Part shown: piece by piece, positions 2,616-22,639 of the stretch
Layout of the letters: each line of letters opens with the position of its first letter
Position numbering within the stretch: position 1 is the first letter of the stretch
IMG/VR virus record: IMGVR_UViG_3300020121_000075
Coordinates: 1-22,639 of that record
From: a virus
DNA: 22,639 nt
Strand: one strand, 5' to 3'
The notes under the pieces: generated by a model
Databases searched by the model: none
The model's input: only the letters and a program-made list of their open reading frames with translations
What the model was told of the DNA's origin: nothing
Translations under genes and position numbers: made by a program

Positions 2616-4874
2616 CTACCCTCCAAGGATCAGGTTCGGCAGCACGCCGAGCACGGTGAACGGCAGCGGGTCGGTGTGGCGGATGAACACGCGCCCGGCC
2701 TTCGTGAACAGGCCCTCGACCGTGAGCTCCTCCTGGCCGGTGAACGGGACCTGCTCGCTCCCCTGGTCGGTCGGCAGGAGGCGCACCTGGTGGAGATGCG
2801 CCACGTCGGGCCCCGCCTGAAACGTGCGCGCGGACGCATCGAGCAGGACGGAGAGACTGCCGACCCGTTTCATCTTGTCGCGGATCTCGACCTGCGCCTG
2901 GCCGACGTCGAGGTCGAGGAGCTCGAGGTCCGCGTACTGAATCGGCAGGCCCGCGTGAATGATGGATGCCGCCGGCGCGAACACATGCGAGATCGTGCCG
3001 CCGGTGACCGTGAACTCGGCCGCCGCGGCGCCGGCCGGATCGCCGTTGTAGATGACGACGCCGTCGGCGACCACGGCGACGACCTGGCCGTTCAGATGAT
3101 CGAGGCCACTGATCGTCGTCGCCGGCGCGCCGCTGTAGCTGAGGCCCGCGTCGACGAAGAAGCTGTCGGCCGCCCAATCGAGGATCGTGCGGCGCTCGAG
3201 CCGCTCGATGTAGCGGACAAACGCCCCGCCGATCGTGCGCCGCACAAGCACGTAGACCGCGTCCTCGCCGGGCTCGGCCACGACACACACGTCCTCGAAC
3301 CGGCCGGCGGCGCCGGTGTCGTGCCGATGCCAGCCCCACACCTCCTGCTCATTGATGTAGGTGAGGCCGAGGAGCACGCCATCGTCGCGGCACGCCCACA
3401 CGATCGAGTGCGGCGTCTGCGCGTAGTCGAGCGCCTGGAGCATGTGGCCGTCGACCAGGTGCGCGGCAAACAGCGTGAGGTCCCGGCCGCCGAGCCCTTC
3501 CACTTGTTGGTCGAAGCGGAGGTCGCGAAGGATGGCGCCCCGCGCCTGCACGTAGAGGATCGCGTTGCCGACGACGACGGGCGTCAGGGCGTCCGCGCCG
3601 ACGAAGGCCTCCTGCTCGGCGTCGATACTGCTCGGCGTCAGGACCGCCGACGTGGTCTTCGTGCTGCCGCCGACCACGATCCACTCGCCGGCGTCCGTCA
3701 GGATGACCAGGCCGTGCGAGAGGCCGAGGAGATTGCGGACCGGGTTGTGCTGGTTGCCGGCGATCTTGAACGTGATCGCGTCGTCGTCCTGGAGCGGGCT
3801 TGAGATGTTGAAATTACTCGCGAGCCCGGTGCGCGAGCCGAACACGGCGTCGGGGTCGAGGTTCGTGTTCGCGAACAGCCGGCGCTGCTGGTAGTAGGCG
3901 GCCGTGCTCGGGTAGTTGTCCGTGCTGTTGAACAGGATCCGCGGCAGCGGCGGCGTCACCGCGAAGTCAGGAATGAAGCCCGTATCGCGGAACGTCGTCA
4001 TCCCGGTCGCCGTCCCGATGAAGCCGAAGGTCCCGTTGCCGAACGGATCGAGATAGACGTAGTACTCGGCCGCCGGCGGCCCGCTGGCCGGCGCGGTCCA
4101 CGAGAGCACGTTCGGCGCGGCCGGCGTCGGGGCGAGGATCGGCGTCACTTGGACCTGCGGCGTCGGCAGGGACTCCTCGTAGGTGTCCACCGCCGCGGCG
4201 GTGACGCGGTAGTAGTAGGACAACGTGCCCGCGGCGCCACCGACGACACCCAGGGCGGTGGGCGGTTGCACCTTGGGCGCGGTCGAGACGACCTGGATGA
4301 CCCACTGCGTCAGCCCGTAGTAAATCAATTCGTAGGGCGGATGGAGTGGTGACGTCAGCGTGATCACGTTCCCGCTCTGCACCCACTTAAAGCCCTCGTT
4401 GCCGTAGACGGTCGGGAGCTCGAGGATGCTCCCCGGCATCGGATACCAGTACGTCGTGTTGGGCGGCGCGTGGCCGGTGCCGTCCTTCACGCAGTAGTAG
4501 TTCACCCCGCCGCTCGCGGTGATGTCCCCGATGTGATACTGCGCGGCGTTGTCGTAGGCCGCGACGCCGGTCAGCGTCACGAGGCCGCCGTTCTTATAGA
4601 AGCGGAGATAGCCGGGCCCGGCCTCGAGGAGGAGACTCTCGCCAGCGACCGCGGCCACGTAGCGCAGGAGGAACACGGCGGCGCTGTTGACCTTCGTCGT
4701 GTTGACGTAGCGCGTCCCGGGGCGATTCGCGACGCCGCCGTGCCGTTGCACGAGGAAGTTGCGACAGGTGCGGAGGCCCTGGTGGTACTTCTGGAGGTCG
4801 GCGCGCGCGGCGAGGGCGGGGGCGAGCTCGCCGCCAGCAAAGGCCCGTTGGAACGTGGACGCGGGGGCAGCCAT
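2616..4874 (-). CDS. Tail nozzle / tail tubular protein B-like protein
   Basis: A protein of 752 residues beginning MAAPASTFQRAFAGGELAPA. The first 60 residues carry the signature of a widespread podovirus tail protein: FAGGELAPALAARADLQKY, then RTCRNFLVQRHGGVANRPGT. I place it with T7 gp12-like nozzle proteins, which form the hexameric tube below the gatekeeper ring. Residues about 205-310 look like a fibronectin type III-type beta domain (SYYYRVTAA, VLSWTAP, YYVYLD). The rest is beta-rich with repeated Trp/Gly patterns (NLLGLSHGLVILTDAGEWIV; EVWGWHRHDT), as expected of a propeller-like nozzle. ATG 4874 follows the TAG of the gatekeeper fusion directly (TAGATG). The neighbours (gatekeeper upstream, internal virion proteins downstream) match T7 order. 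The family is fairly certain; the precise fold is inferred. Confidence 0.75.
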   Translation of the reverse strand: MAAPASTFQRAFAGGELAPALAARADLQKYHQGLRTCRNFLVQRHGGVANRPGTRYVNTTKVNSAAVFLLRYVAAVAGESLLLEAGPGYLRFYKNGGLVTLTGVAAYDNAAQYHIGDITASGGVNYYCVKDGTGHAPPNTTYWYPMPGSILELPTVYGNEGFKWVQSGNVITLTSPLHPPYELIYYGLTQWVIQVVSTAPKVQPPTALGVVGGAAGTLSYYYRVTAAAVDTYEESLPTPQVQVTPILAPTPAAPNVLSWTAPASGPPAAEYYVYLDPFGNGTFGFIGTATGMTTFRDTGFIPDFAVTPPLPRILFNSTDNYPSTAAYYQQRRLFANTNLDPDAVFGSRTGLASNFNISSPLQDDDAITFKIAGNQHNPVRNLLGLSHGLVILTDAGEWIVVGGSTKTTSAVLTPSSIDAEQEAFVGADALTPVVVGNAILYVQARGAILRDLRFDQQVEGLGGRDLTLFAAHLVDGHMLQALDYAQTPHSIVWACRDDGVLLGLTYINEQEVWGWHRHDTGAAGRFEDVCVVAEPGEDAVYVLVRRTIGGAFVRYIERLERRTILDWAADSFFVDAGLSYSGAPATTISGLDHLNGQVVAVVADGVVIYNGDPAGAAAAEFTVTGGTISHVFAPAASIIHAGLPIQYADLELLDLDVGQAQVEIRDKMKRVGSLSVLLDASARTFQAGPDVAHLHQVRLLPTDQGSEQVPFTGQEELTVEGLFTKAGRVFIRHTDPLPFTVLGVLPNLILGG
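2619..2624 (-). promoter_or_regulatory. Ribosome binding site deciding the start of the gp14-like gene
   Basis: GGAGGG on the minus strand, seven bases before ATG 2611. It lies inside the last codons of the nozzle gene, so the two genes are coupled, and it argues against the upstream TTG as start. Confidence 0.6.
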
Positions 4875-7800
4875 CTAGGGTTTGCGCGTGATGTTCCACT
4901 GGTCGCCCCGCGCGACAATCCACGGCGCGGGGCCGTTGGGCGCCTGCTGCTGCTCTTTCATCGCCGACGCGCGCGCGACGTTGAGCGTGATGTTGTATTG
5001 CTGCCAGGCGCCCTCGGCGACGCGCTGGCGGAGCTGGGCCGCGGTCGGCGTCGGGACCTTGGCCTTGCGCGGGTCGTCGGGCCCGCGACCGAATTGCTCC
5101 ACGGCCTCCGGGTCGGCCTGCGCGAGACTCGGCGCGAGGACCGCCGCCAGGCGCCAGGCGAGCGCCTCCTGGAAGACGTGATCGGCGATGAGCACGGTGC
5201 CATCGAGCCGCGCGGTGTACTCGAGCACGGCGTCCTCGAGGTCCGTGAACAGGAGCCCGCCGATCGCGTCGGTGCCCGTGCGGAACTGCGGCGGGGTCGG
5301 GTCCCACCGCCGCCCCTGCCCCGCCGGCGAGACGAGCCGGCGCGCCATGACGCAGTCGAGCGGCAGGCGATAGCTGTAGGTCCAGTCCGGGTTCGCCTTG
5401 GTGGTCGGGCTGCCGGCGACGAGCACGAGCGGGTCGACGTAGCGCGTCGCGAACGGCCAGGCGAAGTCGCGGAGGACACTCTGGAGCTCGGCCTCGAACA
5501 CGTCGCGCACCGCCACCGCGCCCCGACTCTGGTCCGTTGTGAGGTTGGTGATCGTCTGCGCGCCGATGCGGAGGAGCCCGCGGTTGACGACGGCGGCGTT
5601 CGCCGCGGCCGCGGCCGGGTCCGCGTCGATCGCGGCCGGCAGCGTCGGCCGGCCCGGGTTGCCCGGGCGCAGTACGGCGAAGGCGAACGCCAGCGCGGCT
5701 TGATATTTGGCCTGGCACGCCGCGGCGACGTCGGTCATGCGCGTCAACGGCGGCGCCAGGCTCAGGGCGTGTCGCCAGGCGAGCGCGTCCTTGAACAACG
5801 GATCGCCGTCGCCGGCGGCGCACACCGACCGCGAGGTGTACTCGAGCACCGCGTCCGCCTGGTTGGTGTAGATCAGCCCGCCATCGGCATCGCTCCCAAG
5901 TTGGAAGGGCGGCGGCGTGGGGTCGACGCCCGCCTCGCGCGCCACACAGAGGCGTCGCTCGAACACGCAGTCGGTCGGTCGGCGATAGCTGTACAGCCAG
6001 TCCGGCGACGCCGCCGGCGACGGGCCCGCGACGATGACCAGCGTCGCGTAGTGCGTGGCGAACGGCCAGGCGAAGTCGCGCAGGACCGTGTCGACGTCGG
6101 TGATGTAGTGCAGGCGCGCGACGGTCGCCTCCATCGTGTTCTCGGTCAGAATGTCGCCGATCTGCTTGCCGATGCCGATGCGCGAGAGCGCCTGGTTGAT
6201 CAGCTGCGTCGACGGGCTGACGCACTGCGGCCCGAACGGATCGATCGGCGGCCCAGGCGGGAACGGCGGGTCCGTCGGCGGCCCGGGCGGCTCCAGGGGC
6301 GGCAGGGGCGGGATGTAGGGCGGACCCTGCGGGCCGGCCGGATCGACCGGCACAAACTCGCCGGGCGGGGACCAGCCGCCGTTCCCAGCGGTCGCGCTGC
6401 CCGGCAACACGAACACGTCGTAGGTGACGCCGGCCGCGTTGACCGCGACGCCGAGCGTCACCGAGTCAATGCCGCCGGCGGTGATCCCGGTCGAGGCGTT
6501 CGCGGTGTTCGGCCACTGCGTCGAGCTCGTGGTCAGATGCGACGGGTCGCGCATAAAGACGACGCCGTTGTGGCCGACCACGAGCGCCCACGCGGGGCGC
6601 ACGCCGGACGGCGCGAAGTTGATCGTGCGCGTGCCGCCACCGTCGCCGACGTAGCTCGCCAGCCAGAGCACCTTACTCACGCCCGGATCGCCGCTGCCGT
6701 CATTGCGGCGGAAGGCGATGTAGCTCGCCTGGACCGCGTTCGCGTTCGCGAGGCCCGGCTTGTAGGTGAGCGTCCCGTTGCTCATCGCGAGGCCGTTCGC
6801 CACTTCGGCGCCACCGAACAGACTGATCGCGGTCGGCCCGCTGCCGAGGCCCTTGAAGAACACCGAGGCCGTCGCGAGTTGGGTCGCCGCCTCGTGCAGG
6901 AGCAACACGGCCTCGGGCGTGAACTGCTCGCCGTCGAGCGGACTGACGACGTCGTACGCGACGCGGTCCGCGGCCAGGCCGCCGGCGTCACAGAACCGCA
7001 TCCCCGGATCGCAGAACGCGACGTAGGTGTACGTCTGGCCCGCCACGTTGCTATCGGTGCTCGGCCCGGCGAGCCGCACGAGGGTCTGCTGCTGCTGCGT
7101 TGACAGCCAGGGGGAGGGCGGTACCGCGTAGAGGCCGGCGACCGGAATGTCGGCGCCGCCCGCCTGCCAGCCGAGCATCCGCTTCCAGTAGTAATCCGGA
7201 TCCTCGAGGTAGTGCGTCCAGGGCTCATAGCTGGCGAGGTTCTTCGCGAACCCGTACGCGAGCTGGTTGCTCTCGGCGAGCGCCTGCTCGAGGTTGTCGG
7301 GCGCCGACGGGAGATCCATGTTCGTCTCGACGCCCTGCCCCTGCACAAACGTCGGATCGATCAAGACCTGGATGACGTGCTCAGGACTCGGGCCCTGCTG
7401 CCCGCGACTGTGCGCGCTGATCATGCTCGACACCCACAGCGTGCAGCCGTTAGTGCCGCGGATCCACAGGAAGGCGACCGGTGAGCGGAAGGCGAGATCG
7501 AACACGGTCCCATTGCCGACGTAGGTCCCCGTCTTGATGACGACGGGCGCCTGCGGCGGCGCGAGTTGCTGCGCCCACGGCGTGTGCGGGTACGGGGCGT
7601 TGTGAATCCCGATGTGATTCGGAATGCTGTCGGCAGGGACCGGGGCATCGGTCGAGCCCGTGATCGGCGGATAGACGTCTTCATCGCCGAACGTGCCGAG
7701 GATCTCGACCACCGCGAGGAGCCCTTGCACCTTCGTCGCGTCCGTGTTCGGGCCCTTGTCGTAGGTGAGCTCGAGGCCGGCGAGCGGCGTGAGGGGCGCG

Positions 7801-9263
7801 ATCAGCCCGCTCGGCCGATAGAGCCGGTTCGTCCAGGTAAAGGCGCCGGTCTGTGTGCCGAGCGCCACGTCGGTGGCGCCGCCCGGGAGTTTCCAGCCGA
7901 GACTCCCACTTGCCCCGCTGCCGCCCTTGCTACTAAACAGGCCGACCGAGAGCGCGATGATGCCGAGCTGATTCGCCTGGCCGTCGACTTCGGTCGCCGC
8001 GTCGGTCGTGACGCTGAGGCGCGACGCGCTGGTCGTGCTCGCGAGCATCGACGTCGTCGCGGCGGCGTTCGGCGGCCGAATCCGGGACAGGCGCCAATCG
8101 CCGGCCCACGCGGCGGCGTTATGGTTACTCGCAAACCCGGTGGCGCCGACGAGTGCGACGCAGGAGCCCCGAATGAAATCCGCCGACGCGCCCCGCGTGT
8201 AGTCGCCGGTCGGCTGGTCCGCCGCCATCCAGTCGTCGAGGTGCCAGATAAAGTTGTTCGCGGCGCTCGCGATGCTGCCGCCGCCGAGGGTCGACTGCAA
8301 ACACTGCCCGGTCCCCATGTTCGCGAGGGGCGGGCTGCCGCTGATGTCGAGGCCCTTCACGCCGTTCACGAAGACCTTCACGGCCGGCGGGCTGCCGTAG
8401 GTGTAGAGGAGGTCGATCTTGTACCAGGTGTTGACCAGGAGCGTCGCGACCGCGCCGACGAGCGTGTAGGTCGTGAGGCCGTCGGTGTCGTACAGCGCGA
8501 GGCTGCCCGCCGGCGAGAGGAGGAGCGCCGGCCCGCCGTTGTTAATCGTGTTGCGGACGTGCCAGAGGCGGCTCGGGGAATCCGGGAAGCGCACGACGCG
8601 CACATAGAACCGCTCCCACGCGCTCGCGGTCGCCGGCGCGCCCGATTCGACGTGGGCGTGGGTGAGCTGCGCCGTCGTATGCTCGAAGGTGTAGCCGAGG
8701 CCTTGCGCGTGGCGCGACGCGCGCCGGCTCGTCCAGCCCGCGAGATTTCCGGTCCCGCCTTCCCCGCTCGATTGGCTCGGTCCGTCCGCGAGCTCGCCGC
8801 CATCAATCCAGCGGCGCGCGGGCATCGGGACCTTGACGACCGCGTCGGCGCCCGTCGGGACGCCGGTGTTCAGCGCCGGCGCGTATTCATAGTGCGCGTA
8901 CCAGGTGTAGAGCGTCTTGGTGCCAAAGAGCCACGAGATGCCGAACCAGCCGCCACTCTTACGGGTGAACTGATCCTGGTCGAGCGGGTACTGGAGCTCG
9001 GCGAGCGCCGTTTTCCCGAACCACTCCCCCCGGACGCTCGGCGTCGCCCACGGATCGTCTGGGTCGCCGAGGATCGGCAGTGCCGTCGCGTCGGGCTTGA
9101 TCCCCTTCTTGTAGAGGCCGATGCCGACCGCGATCGCCGTCGCTTTTGGCGAGGCGATCACATAGCCGTCCGGGGTCAGGAAGGGCAGCGCGATGAGGTC
9201 GTCGATGTACTTCTGGTCAGGGATGTTGACCGTGTAGACCAGCGCCTCAGCCTTGCTCGCCAT
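4875..9263 (-). CDS. Giant adhesin-gatekeeper fusion: lectin-like tail fibre part plus two tail tubular protein A-like domains
   Basis: A 1462-residue protein in one uninterrupted frame; ATG 9263 follows a TAA directly. Residues 1-150 form an unrecognised N-terminal region. About 150-350 looks like a LamG/concanavalin-type lectin domain (ERFYVRVVRFPDSPSRLWHV, WYKIDLLYTYGSPPAVKVFV, NFIWHLDDWMA). About 350-970 is Gly/Ser/Thr-rich beta sequence with two related motifs near 573-608 and 868-900. About 975-1013 is a proline-rich linker. The rest is two copies of a T7 gp11-like gatekeeper domain (about 1014-1216 and 1217-1419), both with VLRDFAWPFAT, PDW.YSYR and AVLEYT. Gatekeepers form the ring between portal and nozzle, and the nozzle gene follows directly. 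I therefore infer one polypeptide that serves as both tail ring and receptor-binding arm. No start with a ribosome binding site is visible before the gatekeeper part, so the fusion looks real. Confidence 0.72.
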   Translation of the reverse strand: MASKAEALVYTVNIPDQKYIDDLIALPFLTPDGYVIASPKATAIAVGIGLYKKGIKPDATALPILGDPDDPWATPSVRGEWFGKTALAELQYPLDQDQFTRKSGGWFGISWLFGTKTLYTWYAHYEYAPALNTGVPTGADAVVKVPMPARRWIDGGELADGPSQSSGEGGTGNLAGWTSRRASRHAQGLGYTFEHTTAQLTHAHVESGAPATASAWERFYVRVVRFPDSPSRLWHVRNTINNGGPALLLSPAGSLALYDTDGLTTYTLVGAVATLLVNTWYKIDLLYTYGSPPAVKVFVNGVKGLDISGSPPLANMGTGQCLQSTLGGGSIASAANNFIWHLDDWMAADQPTGDYTRGASADFIRGSCVALVGATGFASNHNAAAWAGDWRLSRIRPPNAAATTSMLASTTSASRLSVTTDAATEVDGQANQLGIIALSVGLFSSKGGSGASGSLGWKLPGGATDVALGTQTGAFTWTNRLYRPSGLIAPLTPLAGLELTYDKGPNTDATKVQGLLAVVEILGTFGDEDVYPPITGSTDAPVPADSIPNHIGIHNAPYPHTPWAQQLAPPQAPVVIKTGTYVGNGTVFDLAFRSPVAFLWIRGTNGCTLWVSSMISAHSRGQQGPSPEHVIQVLIDPTFVQGQGVETNMDLPSAPDNLEQALAESNQLAYGFAKNLASYEPWTHYLEDPDYYWKRMLGWQAGGADIPVAGLYAVPPSPWLSTQQQQTLVRLAGPSTDSNVAGQTYTYVAFCDPGMRFCDAGGLAADRVAYDVVSPLDGEQFTPEAVLLLHEAATQLATASVFFKGLGSGPTAISLFGGAEVANGLAMSNGTLTYKPGLANANAVQASYIAFRRNDGSGDPGVSKVLWLASYVGDGGGTRTINFAPSGVRPAWALVVGHNGVVFMRDPSHLTTSSTQWPNTANASTGITAGGIDSVTLGVAVNAAGVTYDVFVLPGSATAGNGGWSPPGEFVPVDPAGPQGPPYIPPLPPLEPPGPPTDPPFPPGPPIDPFGPQCVSPSTQLINQALSRIGIGKQIGDILTENTMEATVARLHYITDVDTVLRDFAWPFATHYATLVIVAGPSPAASPDWLYSYRRPTDCVFERRLCVAREAGVDPTPPPFQLGSDADGGLIYTNQADAVLEYTSRSVCAAGDGDPLFKDALAWRHALSLAPPLTRMTDVAAACQAKYQAALAFAFAVLRPGNPGRPTLPAAIDADPAAAAANAAVVNRGLLRIGAQTITNLTTDQSRGAVAVRDVFEAELQSVLRDFAWPFATRYVDPLVLVAGSPTTKANPDWTYSYRLPLDCVMARRLVSPAGQGRRWDPTPPQFRTGTDAIGGLLFTDLEDAVLEYTARLDGTVLIADHVFQEALAWRLAAVLAPSLAQADPEAVEQFGRGPDDPRKAKVPTPTAAQLRQRVAEGAWQQYNITLNVARASAMKEQQQAPNGPAPWIVARGDQWNITRKP
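5007..6224 (-). repeat. In-frame tandem duplication of the gatekeeper domain
   Basis: Two copies of about 203 residues follow each other inside the fusion protein. Shared blocks are VLRDFAWPFAT, PDW.YSYR.P.DCV..RRL, DPTPP.F..G.DA.GGL, AVLEYT and ALAWR.A..LAP. At DNA level a 23-base block (6058-6080 and 5449-5471) is identical, 609 bases apart, exactly 203 codons. Between the blocks the copies have diverged, so the duplication is old, or the DFAWPFAT block is under strong constraint. Confidence 0.8.
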
Positions 9264-12824: not shown

Positions 12825-14579
12825 TTACCCCGTGGGCGGCGCGGTGATCGCGCCCGGTGCTTGCGCGCTGGTCATCAGGCGATTGAGCACACTGTCGCCG
12901 GTGACCGGCGCCGCGCTGGCATCCTTCGCGGCCTTCGCCGCGGTGGCGAGCTGCTCCGTCTGCGCCTGCTGCTGGACGGCGTCGGCCGCGGCCTGCTTCA
13001 GTTGGTCAGCTTCTTCGTCAGACCGGATGATCCGCGGGTCGACGCCGAGCATGTCGCCGTAGTCGTTGACGACGCGGTTCATATCGATCTTGAACTTGAC
13101 CTCGGGATACTCCTGGGCGAGCGCCAGCGTCGATTGGAGGAAGCGGTCCTGCCCGACGACGCCGACGAGCTTCTGCGCCTGCGCCAGGATCGAGATGTAC
13201 TCGGGCTTCAGGATCACGCCCTCGAGCTCGGGCGGTGGCGGCGGGAACAGGCCCGCGGCGTCCATCAGGCTGTAGACCCGATCGACGATCGGGTCGAGGA
13301 GTTCGTCGTTGGTGCGCTCGAGCACGGGGCCGAGCGCCAGGAGCTTCTCCTCGTGCCGTTCGTCGATCTCGCGCGCCGTCGGCGGTTGCGCGCCGCGTTG
13401 GTCATCCGACCGCGCGAGCATCAGGAACAGGTCCTCGTAGAACGCGCGCTGGATGCGGTACTGCACCTGTTGAATGTCGAACGTGAGATCGCGCAGGTTC
13501 AGGTTGACGTCGTAGACCGACCGCATCCCCTGCATCCCCTCGCGCAGGTCGACGTAGGTGATGTCGCCGGCGAGCAGGCTCGTCTTCATCCCGCGGATCT
13601 GTGACGGCGCGACGACGGGTGGGTCGACCTGCTTGCTGATCGCCTTCGCCTTCTCGAGCTGCATCGACTGCAGTTGTTGCGTGTCGCCGAGCGCGGTCAT
13701 GCCCGGGCAGTCGGTGCCGTAGGTGTCCTCGCCGGTGATGTCCCACCGCGGCGCCATGATCGGGTTCGTTTTGAACCCGCTCTCACGCAGGAACATCGGC
13801 TCGTTCGATTGATACTCCCAATGGCAGGACGCAAACGGCAGGTACTTCGCGCGCGCGCCGGCGCCCGGCGGCGCCTGCAGGTCCGTCGGCTTCACGAGCC
13901 AGCACACCGGGACCGCGACCTCGTAGCTGCCCTTGTCCCACAGGTTGCGGACCGTCCGGCTGATTGTGTCCCACTTGATGTCGCGGCCGTTCGGCTGGAC
14001 GCCGAAGTTCTCGACGACCTGGCGGACGGTGAGCTCGTACTCGCGGACGAATGTGCAGACCAGGCCGCGGTGGTCCTGCCCGAGCGCGTAGCTGCCGATC
14101 GGGTAGCTGTAACAGCGAAAGAGATCCTTCGAGTCGGCGACGATGCTCATCGCGGCCGTGCCGAAGATCCCCATGTCGAGATAGACCAGGGGCAGCACGT
14201 TGTAGAGGTTCGTCGTCGAGAACAACGTGAGCATCCGCTGCGTGACGACGTGCAGCCAGCGCTTGACGGGACCGGACTCGGCGAGGTCCTGGTTCGGGAC
14301 GGTGAGCTTCAGCCAGGGGCGCGCCGGCGACGTGAGGCCCGAGTGCAGGCCGCTCGAGAGCGTGCGGGCACTGAAGCGGCCGGTGCTGTCGATGATGTCC
14401 TGATTCCTTCTATCCCCTTTGTTGCGGTCCTCGATCGTGAACCGCACGCGCCGCGGCATAAAGTTGTCCGCGAGGTCGCGCCAGTGCGCGTCGAACCCGC
14501 TCTGGCGTTCCGACCACAGCGACCCGCGGAGCTCCTCGTAGCGCGTCCGCCGGTCGAGCGGGTTGAGGTATTGCGGCAT
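12825..14579 (-). CDS. Portal (head-tail connector) protein
   Basis: A protein of 584 residues. The opening (RYEELRGSLWSERQSGFDAH, then WRDLADNFMPRR), followed by DIIDSTGRFSARTLSSGLHS and GLTSPARPWLKL, is characteristic of T7/BPP-1-type head-tail connectors. Later LYNVLPLVYLDMGIFGTAAM and VDPPVVAPSQIRGM agree, as does the Gln/Ala-rich helical C-terminus (DQLKQAAADAVQQQAQTEQL). Length is normal for this family. Twelve copies form the ring at the capsid vertex through which DNA is packaged and ejected; it would contact the gatekeeper domains encoded at 4875-9263. The start ATG shares one base with the stop of the preceding gene (TGATG). Confidence 0.88.
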   Translation of the reverse strand: MPQYLNPLDRRTRYEELRGSLWSERQSGFDAHWRDLADNFMPRRVRFTIEDRNKGDRRNQDIIDSTGRFSARTLSSGLHSGLTSPARPWLKLTVPNQDLAESGPVKRWLHVVTQRMLTLFSTTNLYNVLPLVYLDMGIFGTAAMSIVADSKDLFRCYSYPIGSYALGQDHRGLVCTFVREYELTVRQVVENFGVQPNGRDIKWDTISRTVRNLWDKGSYEVAVPVCWLVKPTDLQAPPGAGARAKYLPFASCHWEYQSNEPMFLRESGFKTNPIMAPRWDITGEDTYGTDCPGMTALGDTQQLQSMQLEKAKAISKQVDPPVVAPSQIRGMKTSLLAGDITYVDLREGMQGMRSVYDVNLNLRDLTFDIQQVQYRIQRAFYEDLFLMLARSDDQRGAQPPTAREIDERHEEKLLALGPVLERTNDELLDPIVDRVYSLMDAAGLFPPPPPELEGVILKPEYISILAQAQKLVGVVGQDRFLQSTLALAQEYPEVKFKIDMNRVVNDYGDMLGVDPRIIRSDEEADQLKQAAADAVQQQAQTEQLATAAKAAKDASAAPVTGDSVLNRLMTSAQAPGAITAPPTG

Positions 14580-15371: not shown

Positions 15372-15730
15372 GCCTCGAGCAACCGCTGCGCGATTTTCTT
15401 GCGGCCGCTCACCGTTTGGATCTCTTTATTGAAATGCGCGCAAGACGTGCAGAGCGTCTGCTGCCGGTCCGCCCAGCCACAGCCGGCCGGGCACGGGTCG
15501 CGCTCCGTGCAGCCGCACCAGCGGCAGGTCCCCGGCCTCAGCTTCACGGCGACAATAAACTCATCGACCATCGGCGCTCCCTCCCAGGTCGGCGGCCGCG
15601 CGCGCGTCGCCCAGGCGATCGTCCCGGAGAACCCGCACGCGCACCGCCACGCGAACAGATACGGCGAACTCGTCGGACGGACGCCCGCCTGCCGGCCACA
15701 GATGCAGGCGTGCGTCCGCGGTTGGGTCAC
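15368..15730 (-). CDS. Double zinc-ribbon protein
   Basis: With GTG 15730, which overlaps the stop of the beta-helix gene (GTGA), the protein has 120 residues. It carries two cysteine clusters: C-I-C-G with C-A-C-G near residues 10-31, and C-R-W-C-G-C, C-P-A-G-C-G and C-T-S-C in the second half. The second cluster (CRWCGC....PCPAGCGW....CTSC) is a recurrent zinc-binding module of small phage proteins. There is a possible second start, ATG 15571, with a strong GGGAGGG site; it would give a 67-residue protein with only the second cluster. Both forms may be made. Metal binding is inferred from the cysteines. Function is unknown. The stop overlaps the acetyltransferase start (ATGA). Confidence 0.62.
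   Translation of the reverse strand: MTQPRTHACICGRQAGVRPTSSPYLFAWRCACGFSGTIAWATRARPPTWEGAPMVDEFIVAVKLRPGTCRWCGCTERDPCPAGCGWADRQQTLCTSCAHFNKEIQTVSGRKKIAQRLLEA
15577..15585 (-). promoter_or_regulatory. Internal ribosome binding site in the zinc-ribbon gene
   Basis: GGGAGGGAG on the minus strand, five bases before the in-frame ATG 15571. The upstream GTG 15730 has no such site and depends on coupling. This suggests an internal start producing a shorter second protein with only the C-terminal cysteine module. Confidence 0.45.
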
Positions 15731-17058
15731 GGCGGGAAGTCGGTCGCGCCGGGATCGTCCGGCGTGAGCTCGATGACCGCGTCCGGCATGGCGTCCTGCC
15801 ACGCCTGCGCGCCTGAGCCGCCGCCGTCGATCTTCATGCCGTAGTCCGATGGCGGGAGCTTCATGTTCCGGAGCACGAGGTTGGTCGGATAGAGCGGCTC
15901 GGGAATCAGGTAGAGCGTGGTACCGAGGCGCACCGCCTCGATCGTGATGTTCTGCAGGGTGAGCGCGTCCGGCGCACCCATGATCGTGACGCCGCGCGCG
16001 TCGCCGCCGTAGGTGTCCGGGTCGAGGTCGGAGAACATCACCTCGTCGAGCAGGACGTCGGTCATCGGGACCGACTCCTGGCCGTCGTCACGGCCGAGGA
16101 TCTTGATGCCGGCGCCGCCGTGTCGGCAGTGGCAGCGCGTGATCGCAACGTGTTGGATCGTGGTCCAGGGCGCGCTCCCGTCCTGGTTCCGCGTGCTCAG
16201 GAGGATCAGGTACGCCCCCTGCCCCTCCGCCGTGCCGCCGTACTCGAGGATGCAGTTGTCCATCTCGACGTCGATCGCACACTTGAGCTCGAAGGCGTTC
16301 TTGACCTGGATGCCGAGGCTCTGCCACGCCGGGTTCTTCGTCAGCGTGCAGTTAGTGATCCGGATGTGCGTCGGCATCCGCTCAGGGCTCGTGCTGTCGG
16401 CGCCGCCGAACATGACCGTCTCGCCGGCGGCCTCGAGGTAGCAGTCGTCGATCACGACGTCGCGTGTCCCGTCCCATCCGCTGATCGCCTGCGTGTCGCG
16501 CCCGAAGTCGAACACGTTCGCGACGTGACACTGCGTCACTAGGGCGCCGGCGCCGTTCAGCATGATGCCGCGGTGGCAGCCGAACCCCGGATCGCCGAGC
16601 AGTGTGCAGCGGTCGATCGTGACGTGCGCGCCGGTCACCGCCACGAGTTGCCGATTCTGATGGGACGTCTTCACGGTCAGCCCGATGAGCGTGACGTCCT
16701 CGCCCTCAACGGTGATCGCGTCCTCGTCCGCGGTGCCGACGATCACGACGCCGGTGCCCGCCCCGGTCGCCCGCCCGGTCGGGACACCCTTCGCGGTGAG
16801 GGTCACCGGCTGCCGCAGCACGAGGCTGCCGGGGTACGTGCCGGCCTCGAGCACGAAGACGCTCTCGGCCGCCGCGCTGTCGAGCAACGGCTGCAGCGGC
16901 GTGCCGGCGGCGACCGGGATCCCGTCGATCGGCTCTGGGGGCTCGGGCGGCGTGGGGCCCTCGAGCGCCTCGAGCGCGAGCTCGAGGTTCCCCTGCGCCT
17001 GGTGGATGTAGTCGATCGCGGCGGTGACGTCCGAGGCGTGACGCGGGCGTGTTCTCAT
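15727..17058 (-). CDS. Parallel beta-helix protein, probable tail spike / polysaccharide depolymerase
   Basis: A protein of 443 residues starting MRTRPRHASDVTAAIDYIHQ at ATG 17058; GAGGGGAG lies just upstream, and the ATG overlaps the preceding TGA (ATGA). Residues 10-33 are a helix that may trimerise or dock. After a Pro-rich linker (35-45) comes a pectin-lyase-like start (ESVFVLEAGTYPGSLVLRQP, then TLTAKG), then about 12 coils with the usual rhythm of a right-handed beta-helix: VTIDRCTLLGD, VVIDDCYLEAA, IRITNCTLTKNP, VEMDNCILEYGG, VAITRCHCRHGG, LQNITIEAVRLG. Cys or Asn recurs at equivalent turn positions. Such folds form phage tail spikes that bind or cleave surface polysaccharides; catalytic residues cannot be named here. 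No signal peptide. It lies next to a putative glycosidase, between terminase and portal. Confidence 0.7.
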   Translation of the reverse strand: MRTRPRHASDVTAAIDYIHQAQGNLELALEALEGPTPPEPPEPIDGIPVAAGTPLQPLLDSAAAESVFVLEAGTYPGSLVLRQPVTLTAKGVPTGRATGAGTGVVIVGTADEDAITVEGEDVTLIGLTVKTSHQNRQLVAVTGAHVTIDRCTLLGDPGFGCHRGIMLNGAGALVTQCHVANVFDFGRDTQAISGWDGTRDVVIDDCYLEAAGETVMFGGADSTSPERMPTHIRITNCTLTKNPAWQSLGIQVKNAFELKCAIDVEMDNCILEYGGTAEGQGAYLILLSTRNQDGSAPWTTIQHVAITRCHCRHGGAGIKILGRDDGQESVPMTDVLLDEVMFSDLDPDTYGGDARGVTIMGAPDALTLQNITIEAVRLGTTLYLIPEPLYPTNLVLRNMKLPPSDYGMKIDGGGSGAQAWQDAMPDAVIELTPDDPGATDFPP

Positions 17059-18557
17059 AGTCGGCTCCCCTCGGGCATCCGCCCGCCGTTCCCATAGCCC
17101 CAGCACTTCGCGTGGCTGTGTTTGACGTTGTCGATCGTGCAGCACCCGCAGTAGCCCCGCTGGTTCGCGTACTCGGGCGTGACGTTGACGGTCTTCGTCT
17201 CTGTGGTGTCCGTCGGCGTCGGCTTCGGCCCCTGCGGGCGCCGCGGCCGGAACCGATGCGGGACGCCCCAGCGCGGCGACGGCTCGAAGTCGTACTCGAG
17301 GAACGTCGTCGCCCGCGTCGCGGAGACGTCCTCGACCGGCACAGTCACGGTGTCGTTGTCGAACATGAAAAACGCGAAGTCCTCCCACAGCCGGAAGCGC
17401 AGGTTGTCGGGGCGCGTCCCGAAGACCCACAGGCTGTCGACCATGCGCGCCTGGAGCATCGCCGTGCTCCAGTACGGCCCCATGCTCTGATAATCGACGC
17501 CGTCGACGTCGCCGTGTAGGTCGTCGTAGAAGCCAAACCTTCCCCTGGGATCACCATCGGCGAACCAGGACGTGACGTGCGGCGAGAAGTGCATCCAGCT
17601 CGAGAGGCCGGCCGCTCGGGCTTTCTGCCCGCAGTGCCGGAAGGCGTCGATCGTCACCTGGCCGGGGTGGTTCCACAAGTTCCACTCCCACCCGAGCGAG
17701 AACTCGTCGACGGCCTTCGCGGCGATGAGCGCGTCCATGATCGGGTCGGCGAAGTCGGCCCACTGCTGCGCGGTCATAAAGGCCGGCTGGAAGTACTTGC
17801 TGCCGATCATGATCCGGCTGTATTTCACGTACCGCTTCACGAACAGACACGTCTCGATGAACTGCTCGAGCGTGCGGCCGTTCCCGGGCGGCGCGGTCGG
17901 CGGCATGTTCACCGGCCCGCAACTGTCGGCGTAGGACAGCGTGAAATGCGTATAGCCGTACCCGGCGTACTTCTCGAGGTAGGCCTTCTGGAAGTCCGAC
18001 GTGTACCGATCGACGAACCACGACAAGATCCGCTCGGGCTTGTTCGGCGACGCGCCCGGCACGACGGGCGCGCCCGGCATCTCGACGCCCCAGGCGTCCC
18101 CGCGGTGATAGTCGCGCGTCGGGATGTCCGGCGGCGTCCACGGGAGCTCGGTGCGGTAGTTCACGGGCTCGACGAACGGCGGCAAGGGCCCCCTGGCGAT
18201 GGCAGGGGGCCGCTTAAAAGACGCGGGGGCCAGCGTCGCGACGACGTTGATCGTCTGGTCGTGGAACTTGATCTGCGGGTTCGCGCCGGTCGTCCAGGGC
18301 GCATAGCCGTCGGCGATGACCTCGACGTCGCCGATCCACGCGGGGTCCTTCGGTGGGCCGGCGTAGAAATTGGCAGGGTTGGTCGCGCGGACCGTCCCGC
18401 TCAGGCCGGCGTCGATCCGAATGACCAGCGGCTTCGTGATCAGCGCGCCCGTCTGGTCGACGGCGGTGACGTTGAACTGAATTGTCTCGCTACTCTGCGG
18501 CGTGCCGGCGCCGCCGCCGTGGATCTCGGCCTTCACGCGATCATGGTGTGTCGTCAT
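17055..18557 (-). CDS. TIM-barrel-like putative glycoside hydrolase with N-terminal Ig-like domain
   Basis: A protein of 500 residues from ATG 18557 (MTTHHDRVKAEIHGGGAG), preceded by GAGAGGAG; a longer reading from 18626 lacks such a site. Residues 20-112 form an Ig-like beta domain (TIQFNVTAVDQTGALITKPL). A Pro-rich joint (115-130) leads to a barrel-like part (about 175-400): SWFVDRYTSDF, YGYTHFTLSYADSCGP, FSLGWEWNLWNHPG, SSWMHFSPHVTSWF, DGVDYQSMGPYW, LRFRLWEDFAFFMFD. Strands ending in acidic or aromatic residues (W290-E291-W, D352-x-x-D355, W391-E392-D) suggest a glycoside-hydrolase active site. The tail holds CGCC...HSHAKC (C470, C472, C473, H480, H482, C485), a possible metal site. I infer a virion-bound enzyme or receptor-binding protein acting on surface glycans together with the beta-helix protein next door. 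The family is not recognised. Confidence 0.6.
   Translation of the reverse strand: MTTHHDRVKAEIHGGGAGTPQSSETIQFNVTAVDQTGALITKPLVIRIDAGLSGTVRATNPANFYAGPPKDPAWIGDVEVIADGYAPWTTGANPQIKFHDQTINVVATLAPASFKRPPAIARGPLPPFVEPVNYRTELPWTPPDIPTRDYHRGDAWGVEMPGAPVVPGASPNKPERILSWFVDRYTSDFQKAYLEKYAGYGYTHFTLSYADSCGPVNMPPTAPPGNGRTLEQFIETCLFVKRYVKYSRIMIGSKYFQPAFMTAQQWADFADPIMDALIAAKAVDEFSLGWEWNLWNHPGQVTIDAFRHCGQKARAAGLSSWMHFSPHVTSWFADGDPRGRFGFYDDLHGDVDGVDYQSMGPYWSTAMLQARMVDSLWVFGTRPDNLRFRLWEDFAFFMFDNDTVTVPVEDVSATRATTFLEYDFEPSPRWGVPHRFRPRRPQGPKPTPTDTTETKTVNVTPEYANQRGYCGCCTIDNVKHSHAKCWGYGNGGRMPEGSRL
18187..18211. repeat. Inverted repeat inside the glycosidase-like gene at its domain joint
   Basis: Perfect 9-base arms (GGCCCCCTG and CAGGGGGCC) around a 7-base loop. 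It encodes residues 116-123 of the glycosidase-like protein, within the Pro-rich joint between the Ig-like and barrel parts. It may be an mRNA hairpin or a trace of domain exchange. Confidence 0.5.
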
Positions 18558-18844
18558 CGGTCGCTCCTCTCGAGTGCGTCCCAGCGACCGGGCAGGCAGG
18601 AATACCCACACACGCCCCCAGGACACCGCCGGTCAATCAACAGTCGAATCGCCTCACCGTCAGGACACACCGCGAAGCGCGGCAGCATCCGCGCGGCCTT
18701 CCCTTGCGCGACGATGTTCTGCGCGAGGGGCGCACACGCCGGCGCGAGCGCCAGGATGCCCGCGAGGATCAGTAGCCACCGCGGCGCGGTGGCCGTCGCA
18801 CGGCGCCCTTCGGTTTGGTGTTCTTCTTCTTCGAGCCCATACAT
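18554..18844 (-). CDS. Small membrane-anchored cysteine-rich protein
   Basis: Up to 96 residues from ATG 18844. After an acidic start (MYGLEEEEHQTEG) comes a hydrophobic segment (residues 23-38, WLLILAGILALAPACA), then a soluble domain with FAVCPDGEAIRLLIDRRCPG and GVCGYSCLPGRW, four cysteines in a C-x13-C-x4-C-x3-C pattern. The segment could be a membrane anchor or signal peptide; the lipobox is poor. Its stop overlaps the start of the glycosidase-like gene (ATGA), which supports translation. The 5' part overlaps a 23-residue basic peptide in another frame whose ATG is better spaced from the shared ribosome binding site, so the true start of this gene is uncertain (ATG 18688 would give a 44-residue form without the membrane segment). 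Function unknown. Confidence 0.5.
   Translation of the reverse strand: MYGLEEEEHQTEGRRATATAPRWLLILAGILALAPACAPLAQNIVAQGKAARMLPRFAVCPDGEAIRLLIDRRCPGGVCGYSCLPGRWDALERSDR
18769..18840 (-). CDS. Tiny basic peptide overlapping the cysteine-rich gene
   Basis: A 23-residue reading frame from ATG 18840, beginning MGSKKKNTKPKGAV and ending RRGGY, with net charge of about +10. AGGAGG (18854-18849) lies eight bases upstream, ideal spacing, whereas the ATG of the overlapping 96-residue frame is only four bases away. Short Lys/Arg/Pro/Gly-rich peptides are common in phage structural operons and could bind nucleic acid. It may also be a leader for translation of the overlapping frame. Too short to be certain. 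Confidence 0.45.
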   Translation of the reverse strand: MGSKKKNTKPKGAVRRPPRRGGY

Positions 18845-22190: not shown

Positions 22191-22253
22191 TTTTTGTACC
22201 CGCCTCCGGTTTTTGTACCCGGCCGCGATCGTCACAATCGTCACGATCGTCAC
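22191..22253. repeat. Two short direct-repeat arrays at the end of the integrase gene
   Basis: TTTTTGTACCCG occurs at 22191-22202 and 22210-22221 (19-base spacing). Then (G/A)ATCGTCAC occurs three times in tandem at 22227-22253; the last copy overlaps the integrase TGA (22252-22250). These are further possible protein-binding sites of the same att-like region. Confidence 0.6.
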
Positions 22254-22639
22254 GCCTTCGATCCCCACGCCGCGGCGACGCGCTGCCCGCGCTGGACGTC
22301 GAACTGGTGGTCGGGAATCCAGTGCTTATAGGTCGACTCCGTGAGGCTCTCGTTCTTGTGGCCGAGTTGCTCGGACACGTAGCGAAGCCGCTCGCCGGCG
22401 GTCAAGAGCACGGTCGCGAACGTGTGCCGCGTCGCGTGGATGCTCGAGCTCACCGGGATGCCCGCCTTGCGGCAGAGCATCGGGAGGACGTGCCGCGCGA
22501 AGTACTTCGGGTCCAGCCGCTCGCCGCGCGCGTTGGTGAACAGGAGCTCGAGGTTCACGTCCTGCGGCCGCCCGAGCTTGAGGAACTTCTCGCGCTCCGC
22601 CTTCCCGTGCGCCTCGAGCTCGGCCCACAGGTCCGCCCA
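22250..22639 (-). CDS. int: Tyrosine-family integrase, C-terminal part
   Basis: The frame is open to the right edge, so the N-terminal part is missing; 129 residues are visible. They show the catalytic C-terminal region of a tyrosine recombinase: LLFTNARGERLDPKYF, then HATRHTFATVLLTAG (H-x-x-R box, with the catalytic Arg in RHTFAT), YVSEQLGHKNESLTE (LGH motif) and STYKHWIP with the nucleophilic Tyr. The protein ends AAAWGSKA with a TGA inside a 9-base repeat array. It would catalyse site-specific integration and excision, and its presence implies a temperate phage. The repeat-rich segment just downstream is the natural place for attP. Confidence 0.85.
   Translation of the reverse strand, partial: WADLWAELEAHGKAEREKFLKLGRPQDVNLELLFTNARGERLDPKYFARHVLPMLCRKAGIPVSSSIHATRHTFATVLLTAGERLRYVSEQLGHKNESLTESTYKHWIPDHQFDVQRGQRVAAAWGSKA

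Follow-up and report, generated by a model that had tools for sequence, protein, structure and literature searches.

How short-tailed phages pass from a 12-fold portal to a six-fold nozzle with six fibres is a general question in their assembly. The locus described here raises it in a particular form: can an adhesin and the tail gatekeeper be one polypeptide and, if so, how would such chains be arranged on the portal? The window, by which we mean the whole 22.6 kb stretch of DNA analysed (22,639 nucleotides), carries, on its minus strand, a podovirus morphogenesis block of the BPP-1/epsilon15 type. The block comprises genes for a Terminase_2 small terminase, the large terminase, the portal, the major capsid protein (MCP; GP7, E 1.7e-121), a Bbp16-type cement protein, the arm-gatekeeper fusion and the nozzle, followed by an internal protein of gp14 type and another virion protein. 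The fusion gene therefore adjoins the nozzle gene after the MCP and cement genes, in the position of T7 gp11-type adaptors. At the edge of the window (22250-22639) lies a C-terminal phage integrase fragment (PF00589, E 7e-11), which suggests a temperate phage; neither an Rfam nor a tRNA scan of the window gave a match.

The fusion gene reads through from one ATG start without internal stops (Table 1). The initial annotation had described it as an adhesin joined in a single frame to the gatekeeper, with no internal start visible and a proline-rich linker at about residues 975-1013. The single frame and the linker were borne out. Residues 972-1043 contain no in-frame ATG, GTG or TTG codon, the nearest flanking ones being a GTG at residue 971, just before the linker, and then one at residue 1044. 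The linker itself maps to ~979-1013, GC3 is 0.86-0.96 across the whole gene and 0.92 in the linker, and the same architecture recurs in ~60 related loci, as detailed below.

Table 1. Coordinates of the fusion protein, its parts and its expected partners in the window.
Feature	Position	Strand	Evidence and remarks
Arm-gatekeeper fusion protein P0001	4875..9263	-	1462 aa; open frame, single ATG
N-terminal beta domain, residues 1-147	8823..9263	-	AF2 model; homologous across fused family
Concanavalin A/LamG-like lectin fold (predicted), residues 148-366	8166..8822	-	VIA; sub-threshold Laminin_G_3
Second beta domain (predicted), residues 367-530	7674..8165	-	AF2 secondary structure
Beta domain (predicted) with GTYVGNGT motif, residues 571-785	6909..7553	-	interrupted by insert 641-722
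Last beta domain region (predicted), residues 786-978	6330..6908	-	motif SYVGDG...RDPSH...GSATAGN
Pro-rich flexible linker, residues 979-1013	6225..6329	-	composition; low pLDDT at 994-1013
Gatekeeper domain D1, residues 1014-1205	5649..6224	-	hmmsearch; fold match 8ck1_E
Inter-gatekeeper linker, residues 1206-1218	5610..5648	-	~18 unstructured residues from last D1 helix to first D2 helix
Gatekeeper domain D2, residues 1219-1462	4878..5609	-	hmmsearch; fold match 7wmp_m; keeps C-terminal tail
Nozzle protein (T7 gp12 role)	2616..4874	-	phrog_376 E 3.6e-157; directly downstream of fusion gene
Portal protein	12825..14579	-	Pfam Head-tail_con E 2.5e-133; expected gatekeeper-ring partner

Residues 1014-1462 are two tandem gatekeepers of the BPP-1/epsilon15/T7 gp11 type. 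The phrog_394 profile matches the C-terminus in two stretches (E 3.7e-57), and a purpose-built gatekeeper HMM detects both domains (E 3e-63 and 9e-64), with phmmer and HMM bounds that place a complete D1 at ~1014-1205 and a complete D2 at ~1219-1452. The region had thus been recognised correctly as a gatekeeper, though it had been taken for one copy instead of two. The fold is likewise seen twice in the predicted structure (AF2, 28-sequence alignment; mean pLDDT 81, pTM 0.49), a model that at this pTM does not fix the orientation of D1 relative to D2. Both modelled domains show the helix bundle and small beta domain of T7 gp11-type adaptors. D1 resembles the Carin1 connector most closely (8ck1_E; Z 19.9, rmsd 2.7 over 183 residues; AF2 and VIA), and also the LME-1 adaptor (9efk; Z 14.7) and T7 gp11 (Z ~13; both VIA), while D2 (221-453 of the model) matches the KHP30 tail chain 7wmp_m (Z 9.8, VIA).

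In 41 of the 174 columns shared by D1 and D2, both domains are conserved and identical. Together with the completeness of both copies, this would be expected if they filled the same kind of seat. We dropped the idea of a sharp D1/D2 specialisation at the nozzle-facing loop, as just two columns are fixed differently. A C-terminal tail motif, NE-Q...WI-GR, is present in D2 and absent from D1; its retention by the last domain only holds for the fused doubles and, as judged by inspection, for L061, L093 and L035. By analogy with T7 and SU10, this conserved tail would grip the portal. In several relatives, insertions of ~50-90 residues interrupt the gatekeeper, either inside D1 (L052, L053, L055 and L056) or inside D2 or single domains (L041, L049, L054, L077, L079, L084 and L090), and fall at one or other of two recurring sites (HMM ~110 and ~69).

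The linker upstream of D1 is variable in sequence and constant in character. Across 60 loci its median length is 41.5 aa, with 22% P, 14% G, 14% D, 9% E and only 0.6% K+R; the individual linkers (31-106 aa) differ in sequence, keep the frame, are P/G/D/E-rich and acidic, and nearly all lack Met. At its exit, D1 of the window carries Cys1014, at the junction, and Cys1148, in an RPxC motif. All of the 46 testable fused D1/F1 domains have both cysteines, and none of the 36 testable unfused singles has the two together; these counts are not independent, since the sequences share descent. Judged from this pattern, Cys1014 and Cys1148 might form a disulfide that staples the linker exit.

Residues 1-978 are modelled with good confidence as a multi-domain beta arm (AF2 on residues 1-1013 with an alignment of 51 relatives; mean pLDDT 83.7, pTM 0.83). 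The initial annotation had called part of it LamG-like, which is borne out for the predicted fold and not for Pfam membership. Residues 148-366 adopt a ConA-like jelly-roll in the model (Z 14-17 over 168-210 residues, VIA), with matches to sialidase lectin domains, PL14 alginate lyase and Cip1. Laminin_G_3 (PF13385) scores 16.3-17.1 bits against a curated cut-off of 27.6, and 8 of the 51 relatives match it at E<=0.01 (best 3.1e-7). We therefore describe the region as having a predicted ConA-like fold and not as a Laminin_G_3 member. Botulinum and tetanus binding domains in the Foldseek list reflect only this common fold and are uninformative on toxicity. Residues 641-722 (about 7098-7343) form a helical, poorly predicted insert that is also found in L031/L043 and that most relatives lack.

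Mean identity among relatives is ~50% in the gatekeepers, 46% in the last arm domain (residues 846-978, the best-conserved part of the arm), 31% in the ConA domain and 36% at the very N-terminus. The outer parts of the arm carry insertions, and both sequence variability and differences in length tend to increase with distance from the ring. CBM_5_12 modules occur in four relatives, and Ig and cadherin-like domains in single relatives. The conservation gradient and the outer insertions fit an exposed arm with a presumed binding role. Searches for the arm outside the family gave little: tblastn with the full arm against 50,697 phage records found no match, residues 547-985 at a loose threshold gave at most a chance-level match in the phage records, and the arm profile retrieved one chance match and nothing else in a PDB sequence search. 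Peptide patterns for the arm alone also had no match in viral contigs, these single-sequence patterns being too strict.

To collect relatives of the whole protein, viral contigs were scanned with patterns and alignments, and the loci found were then classified with HMMs in all six frames. The classified set consists of the best 80 of 146 relatives, and all locus counts are lower bounds. At least ~60 uncultured viral loci combine a homologous arm with an in-frame linker (~39 complete single ORFs and ~20 partial ones), every fused example being an uncultured metagenomic contig. All sufficiently long arms are homologous, mostly 26-55% identical to that of the window. Fused double gatekeepers account for at least ~28 loci, the window included, and fused singles for at least ~26, and there is one fused triple (L035:2-2491), whose extra copy derives from D2. 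Unfused gatekeepers among the best 80 of 146 include many singles, two doubles (L061:9971-11239 and L076:229-1809) and one triple (L093:289-2073), and these duplications are independent of that in the window. The existence of fused singles and of unfused doubles and triples led us to reject the idea that duplication always accompanies fusion. Separate fibre and gatekeeper genes, which would have spoken against a genuine fusion, were looked for and none was found within the clade; 4 of the ~60 loci are frame-broken, namely L057 (two frameshifts, one at the linker and one in the ConA part), L028 and L068 (frameshifts in the arm), and L072 (interrupted by an in-frame stop). Genome contigs contained unfused single gatekeepers only, and hence no host was assigned to the fused clade.

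Phylogenies help to order these forms. In the gatekeeper tree, all fused domains fall into one clade (SH-aLRT 100), within which singles, D1 and D2 form separate groups and the extra copy of L035 joins D2; the unfused doubles and triple are independent of the fused-clade duplication. On the nozzle tree, too, the fused phages are monophyletic (one change), and the unfused doubles are their sister group. Since both the fused gatekeepers and their neighbouring nozzle genes form single clades, the fusion had a single origin. Tandem duplication, by the same trees, occurred at least four times independently, that of D1 and D2 being a single event inside the fused clade. Copy number changes eight times on each of the nozzle, arm and MCP trees. 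Among fused phages only, a nozzle tree in which the doubles form one clade is rejected (267 log units, p-AU 6e-6). The gatekeeper D1/F1 sequences, by contrast, group by copy number (support 96), which indicates that single and double gatekeepers were exchanged against related nozzles and that both kinds of ring fit nozzles, capsids and arms that are related. The simplest reading of this evidence, which consists of quick trees with SH-aLRT plus one AU test, is that recombination swaps single for double gatekeepers, or the reverse, among phages whose nozzles, arms and capsids are otherwise mixed. Such exchange is also the best available evidence that the two forms are equivalent in shape at the portal and nozzle contacts.

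What ring could such chains build? In the PDB entries for T7 (6r21) and LME-1 (9efk), the gatekeeper rings consist of 12 chains. The T7 gp11 12-ring sits on the portal and holds it by a C-terminal helix of gp11, and each nozzle platform touches a pair of adjacent gp11 subunits that alternate in conformation (PMC6702177). In SU10, neighbouring adaptors likewise differ, and 12 adaptors provide six fibre sites (PMC9509320). A precedent for filling a ring with duplicated domains is the T5 tail tube protein pb6, in which the ring domain is duplicated and the trimer is pseudo-hexameric (PMC5717097).

We propose that the gatekeeper, present in two copies, bears at its N-terminus an adhesin arm of ~980 residues, joined by a flexible linker that is acidic and Pro-rich, and that six such chains would sit on the dodecameric portal, with D1 and D2 in alternate seats of one 12-domain pseudo-dodecamer. 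D2 would provide the C-terminal tail, the part that grips the portal in T7, and each two-domain chain would lie opposite one protomer of the hexameric nozzle, hard-wiring the alternating conformations of neighbours. On geometric grounds, the inter-domain stretch would be long enough to reach the neighbouring seat. Six arms, covalently tethered at the ring, would project outwards and bind cell-surface sugars; with a covalent tether, docking in the gatekeeper/nozzle groove in the manner of separate fibres would be unnecessary. We assign this model as a whole a probability of roughly 0.6. Ring occupancy of 6x2, outward projection of the arm and sugar or receptor binding are its inferred elements.

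The number of arms would follow from copy number. The copy numbers found, in fused and unfused proteins, are 1, 2 and 3, all divisors of 12, and from this and the exchangeability of the forms we infer that fewer chains fill the same ring, kept at 12 domains as 12x1, 6x2 or, for triples, 4x3. With a duplicated gatekeeper, the ring thus probably holds about six arms rather than 12. Fused singles would give 12 arms, so that arm number would not be held at six family-wide, and the triples L035 and L093 would form four chains, which fit 12 seats and do not fit neatly on a six-fold nozzle.

Two other arrangements of the chain have to be set against this 6x2 ring. Twelve chains could place D1 and D2 in two stacked rings, lengthening the connector and displaying twelve arms. 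Fused single-gatekeeper relatives presumably do carry 12 arms, and D1 and D2 are distinct, unhomogenised clades, which could reflect different ring positions. We nevertheless regard stacking as improbable: D1 and D2 share the same conserved core, with two fixed-difference columns at the threshold used, the tail with the predicted portal-gripping role is kept by the last domain only, and a taller ring would be expected to disturb the swapping of singles and doubles against intermixed nozzles and capsids. Arm and gatekeeper might also end up as separate proteins, as in T7, through cleavage at the linker after assembly or through two translation products. The long, probably exposed, P/G/D/E-rich linker would be compatible with this, and in L057 the gatekeeper is in another frame than the arm; L057, with its second frameshift in the same gene, points rather to sequence error or decay. 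Nearly all loci keep the linker in frame, neither linker nor early gatekeeper of the protein in the window has a start codon (residues 972-1043), and the linker exit bears a Cys pair specific to fused forms. Separation is accordingly a reading to which we give little credence.

The function of the arm and the integrity of the gene invite further doubts. The arm could be a structural collar, a capsid-contacting whisker or an enzyme that attacks surface polysaccharides instead of a receptor-binding adhesin. The ConA fold is common to alginate lyases, GH131 and lectins, arm homology is full-length and clade-wide, steadier than in many receptor-binding proteins, and the Carin1 gene in the equivalent position, flanked by those for cement and connector, encodes a head spike base protein. 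The CBM_5_12 and Ig-like modules of relatives and the drop in conservation from ring to ConA domain favour an exposed binding arm, leaving these other roles unlikely, if worth bearing in mind. That the fusion is an assembly chimera or hides a missed frameshift, with arm and gatekeeper genes truly separate, might be suspected because all data are metagenome assemblies and four relatives are frame-broken. We rejected this as extremely improbable given the ~39 divergent complete ORFs and L002, an independent contig with 92% identity in the gatekeeper part, which crosses the junction in a single frame.

Even if it binds receptors, the arm may not be the sole or main receptor-binding protein, since other fibre or spike candidates exist in G002 and at 15727-18626 of the window. 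The notion of the arm as the only fibre is unsupported, given another fibre-like gene in G002, a fused-type genome: it encodes a 370-aa putative tail fibre (L125:10095-11204; phrog_5073, E 1.3e-15) and follows a giant internal protein gene. At 15727-18626, between large terminase and portal, lie two large ORFs that are candidate spikes or enzymes. The first resembles a beta-helix (pectate lyase-type) by eye; neither has a Pfam or PHROG match above cut-off, and homologues of 15730-17097 occur in three of seven related genomes. Near the N-terminal part of the nozzle protein (2616-4874), the stretch YDNAAQYHIGDITASGGVNYYCVKDGTGHAPPNTTYWYPMP resembles a CBM5/12-type module by eye, with no Pfam match at E 0.01. 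Beyond the nozzle and internal protein genes, G001 (L121:6967-14352) and G002 (32058-42173) carry ORFs of 2462 and 3372 aa, which are probably ejection or polyvalent proteins.

The initial annotation had suggested that the fusion may be a little-described way of building a podovirus tail, and we found no earlier description of such a fusion in the open-access literature searched. With no published account in these papers and no detectable relative of the arm among sequenced phage isolates, the lineage appears uncharacterised. What is new here is that the gatekeeper is in tandem, that the design is conserved throughout an uncultured lineage and that its single and double forms are exchanged. 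A broader proposal, which we put forward tentatively, is that docked fibres were replaced in this podovirus lineage by covalent arms, whose number (12, 6 or 4) is set through copy number in exchangeable cassettes on the same portal and nozzle. A gatekeeper of one, two or three copies that is swapped among phages with similar nozzles amounts to a natural experiment on the symmetry step. The covalent arm would be a different solution to fibre attachment, and the flexible linker a natural boundary between adhesin and ring.

Comparison with known systems places the fusion in context. T7 gp17 fibres and SU10 long tail fibres, six to a tail, likewise attach where adaptor and nozzle lie (PMC6702177, PMC9509320). 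They are separate trimers that dock non-covalently, whereas the arm described here is covalent and differs in domain make-up. Its ConA and following beta domain probably correspond to stand-alone phage proteins of ~320-360 aa in BFVD: VpV262 ORFO, a weak profile match whose gene adjoins a tail appendage gene, and Roseovarius phage RPP1 orf82 have a predicted fold like this part of the arm, and differ in being separate proteins without a gatekeeper. An alternative assignment of these matches as YTGNG domains was rejected, as the profile matches are weak and that of VpV262 lies in the ConA part. With T5 pb6, the window protein shares tandem ring-forming domains in one chain and, if our model holds, a ring built from fewer and longer chains as a result of tandem duplication; pb6 differs in its unrelated fold, its place in a long-tail tube, its lack of an adhesin arm and its proven stoichiometry. 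The closest counterparts are epsilon15 gp11, BPP-1 Bbp14, Carin1 gp37 and T7 gp11, which share the phrog_394 profile and the fold; in epsilon15, BPP-1 and Carin1, the gene likewise lies between cement protein and nozzle. Known phrog_394 gatekeepers are single, free proteins of ~200-230 aa, in contrast to the two copies per chain and the ~1000-residue N-terminal arm of the window. Covalent fusion is therefore a conserved and recurrent way of building the tail within this lineage and not a general podovirus plan: with the distant relatives epsilon15, BPP-1 and Carin1 unfused and single, the design is a derived one.
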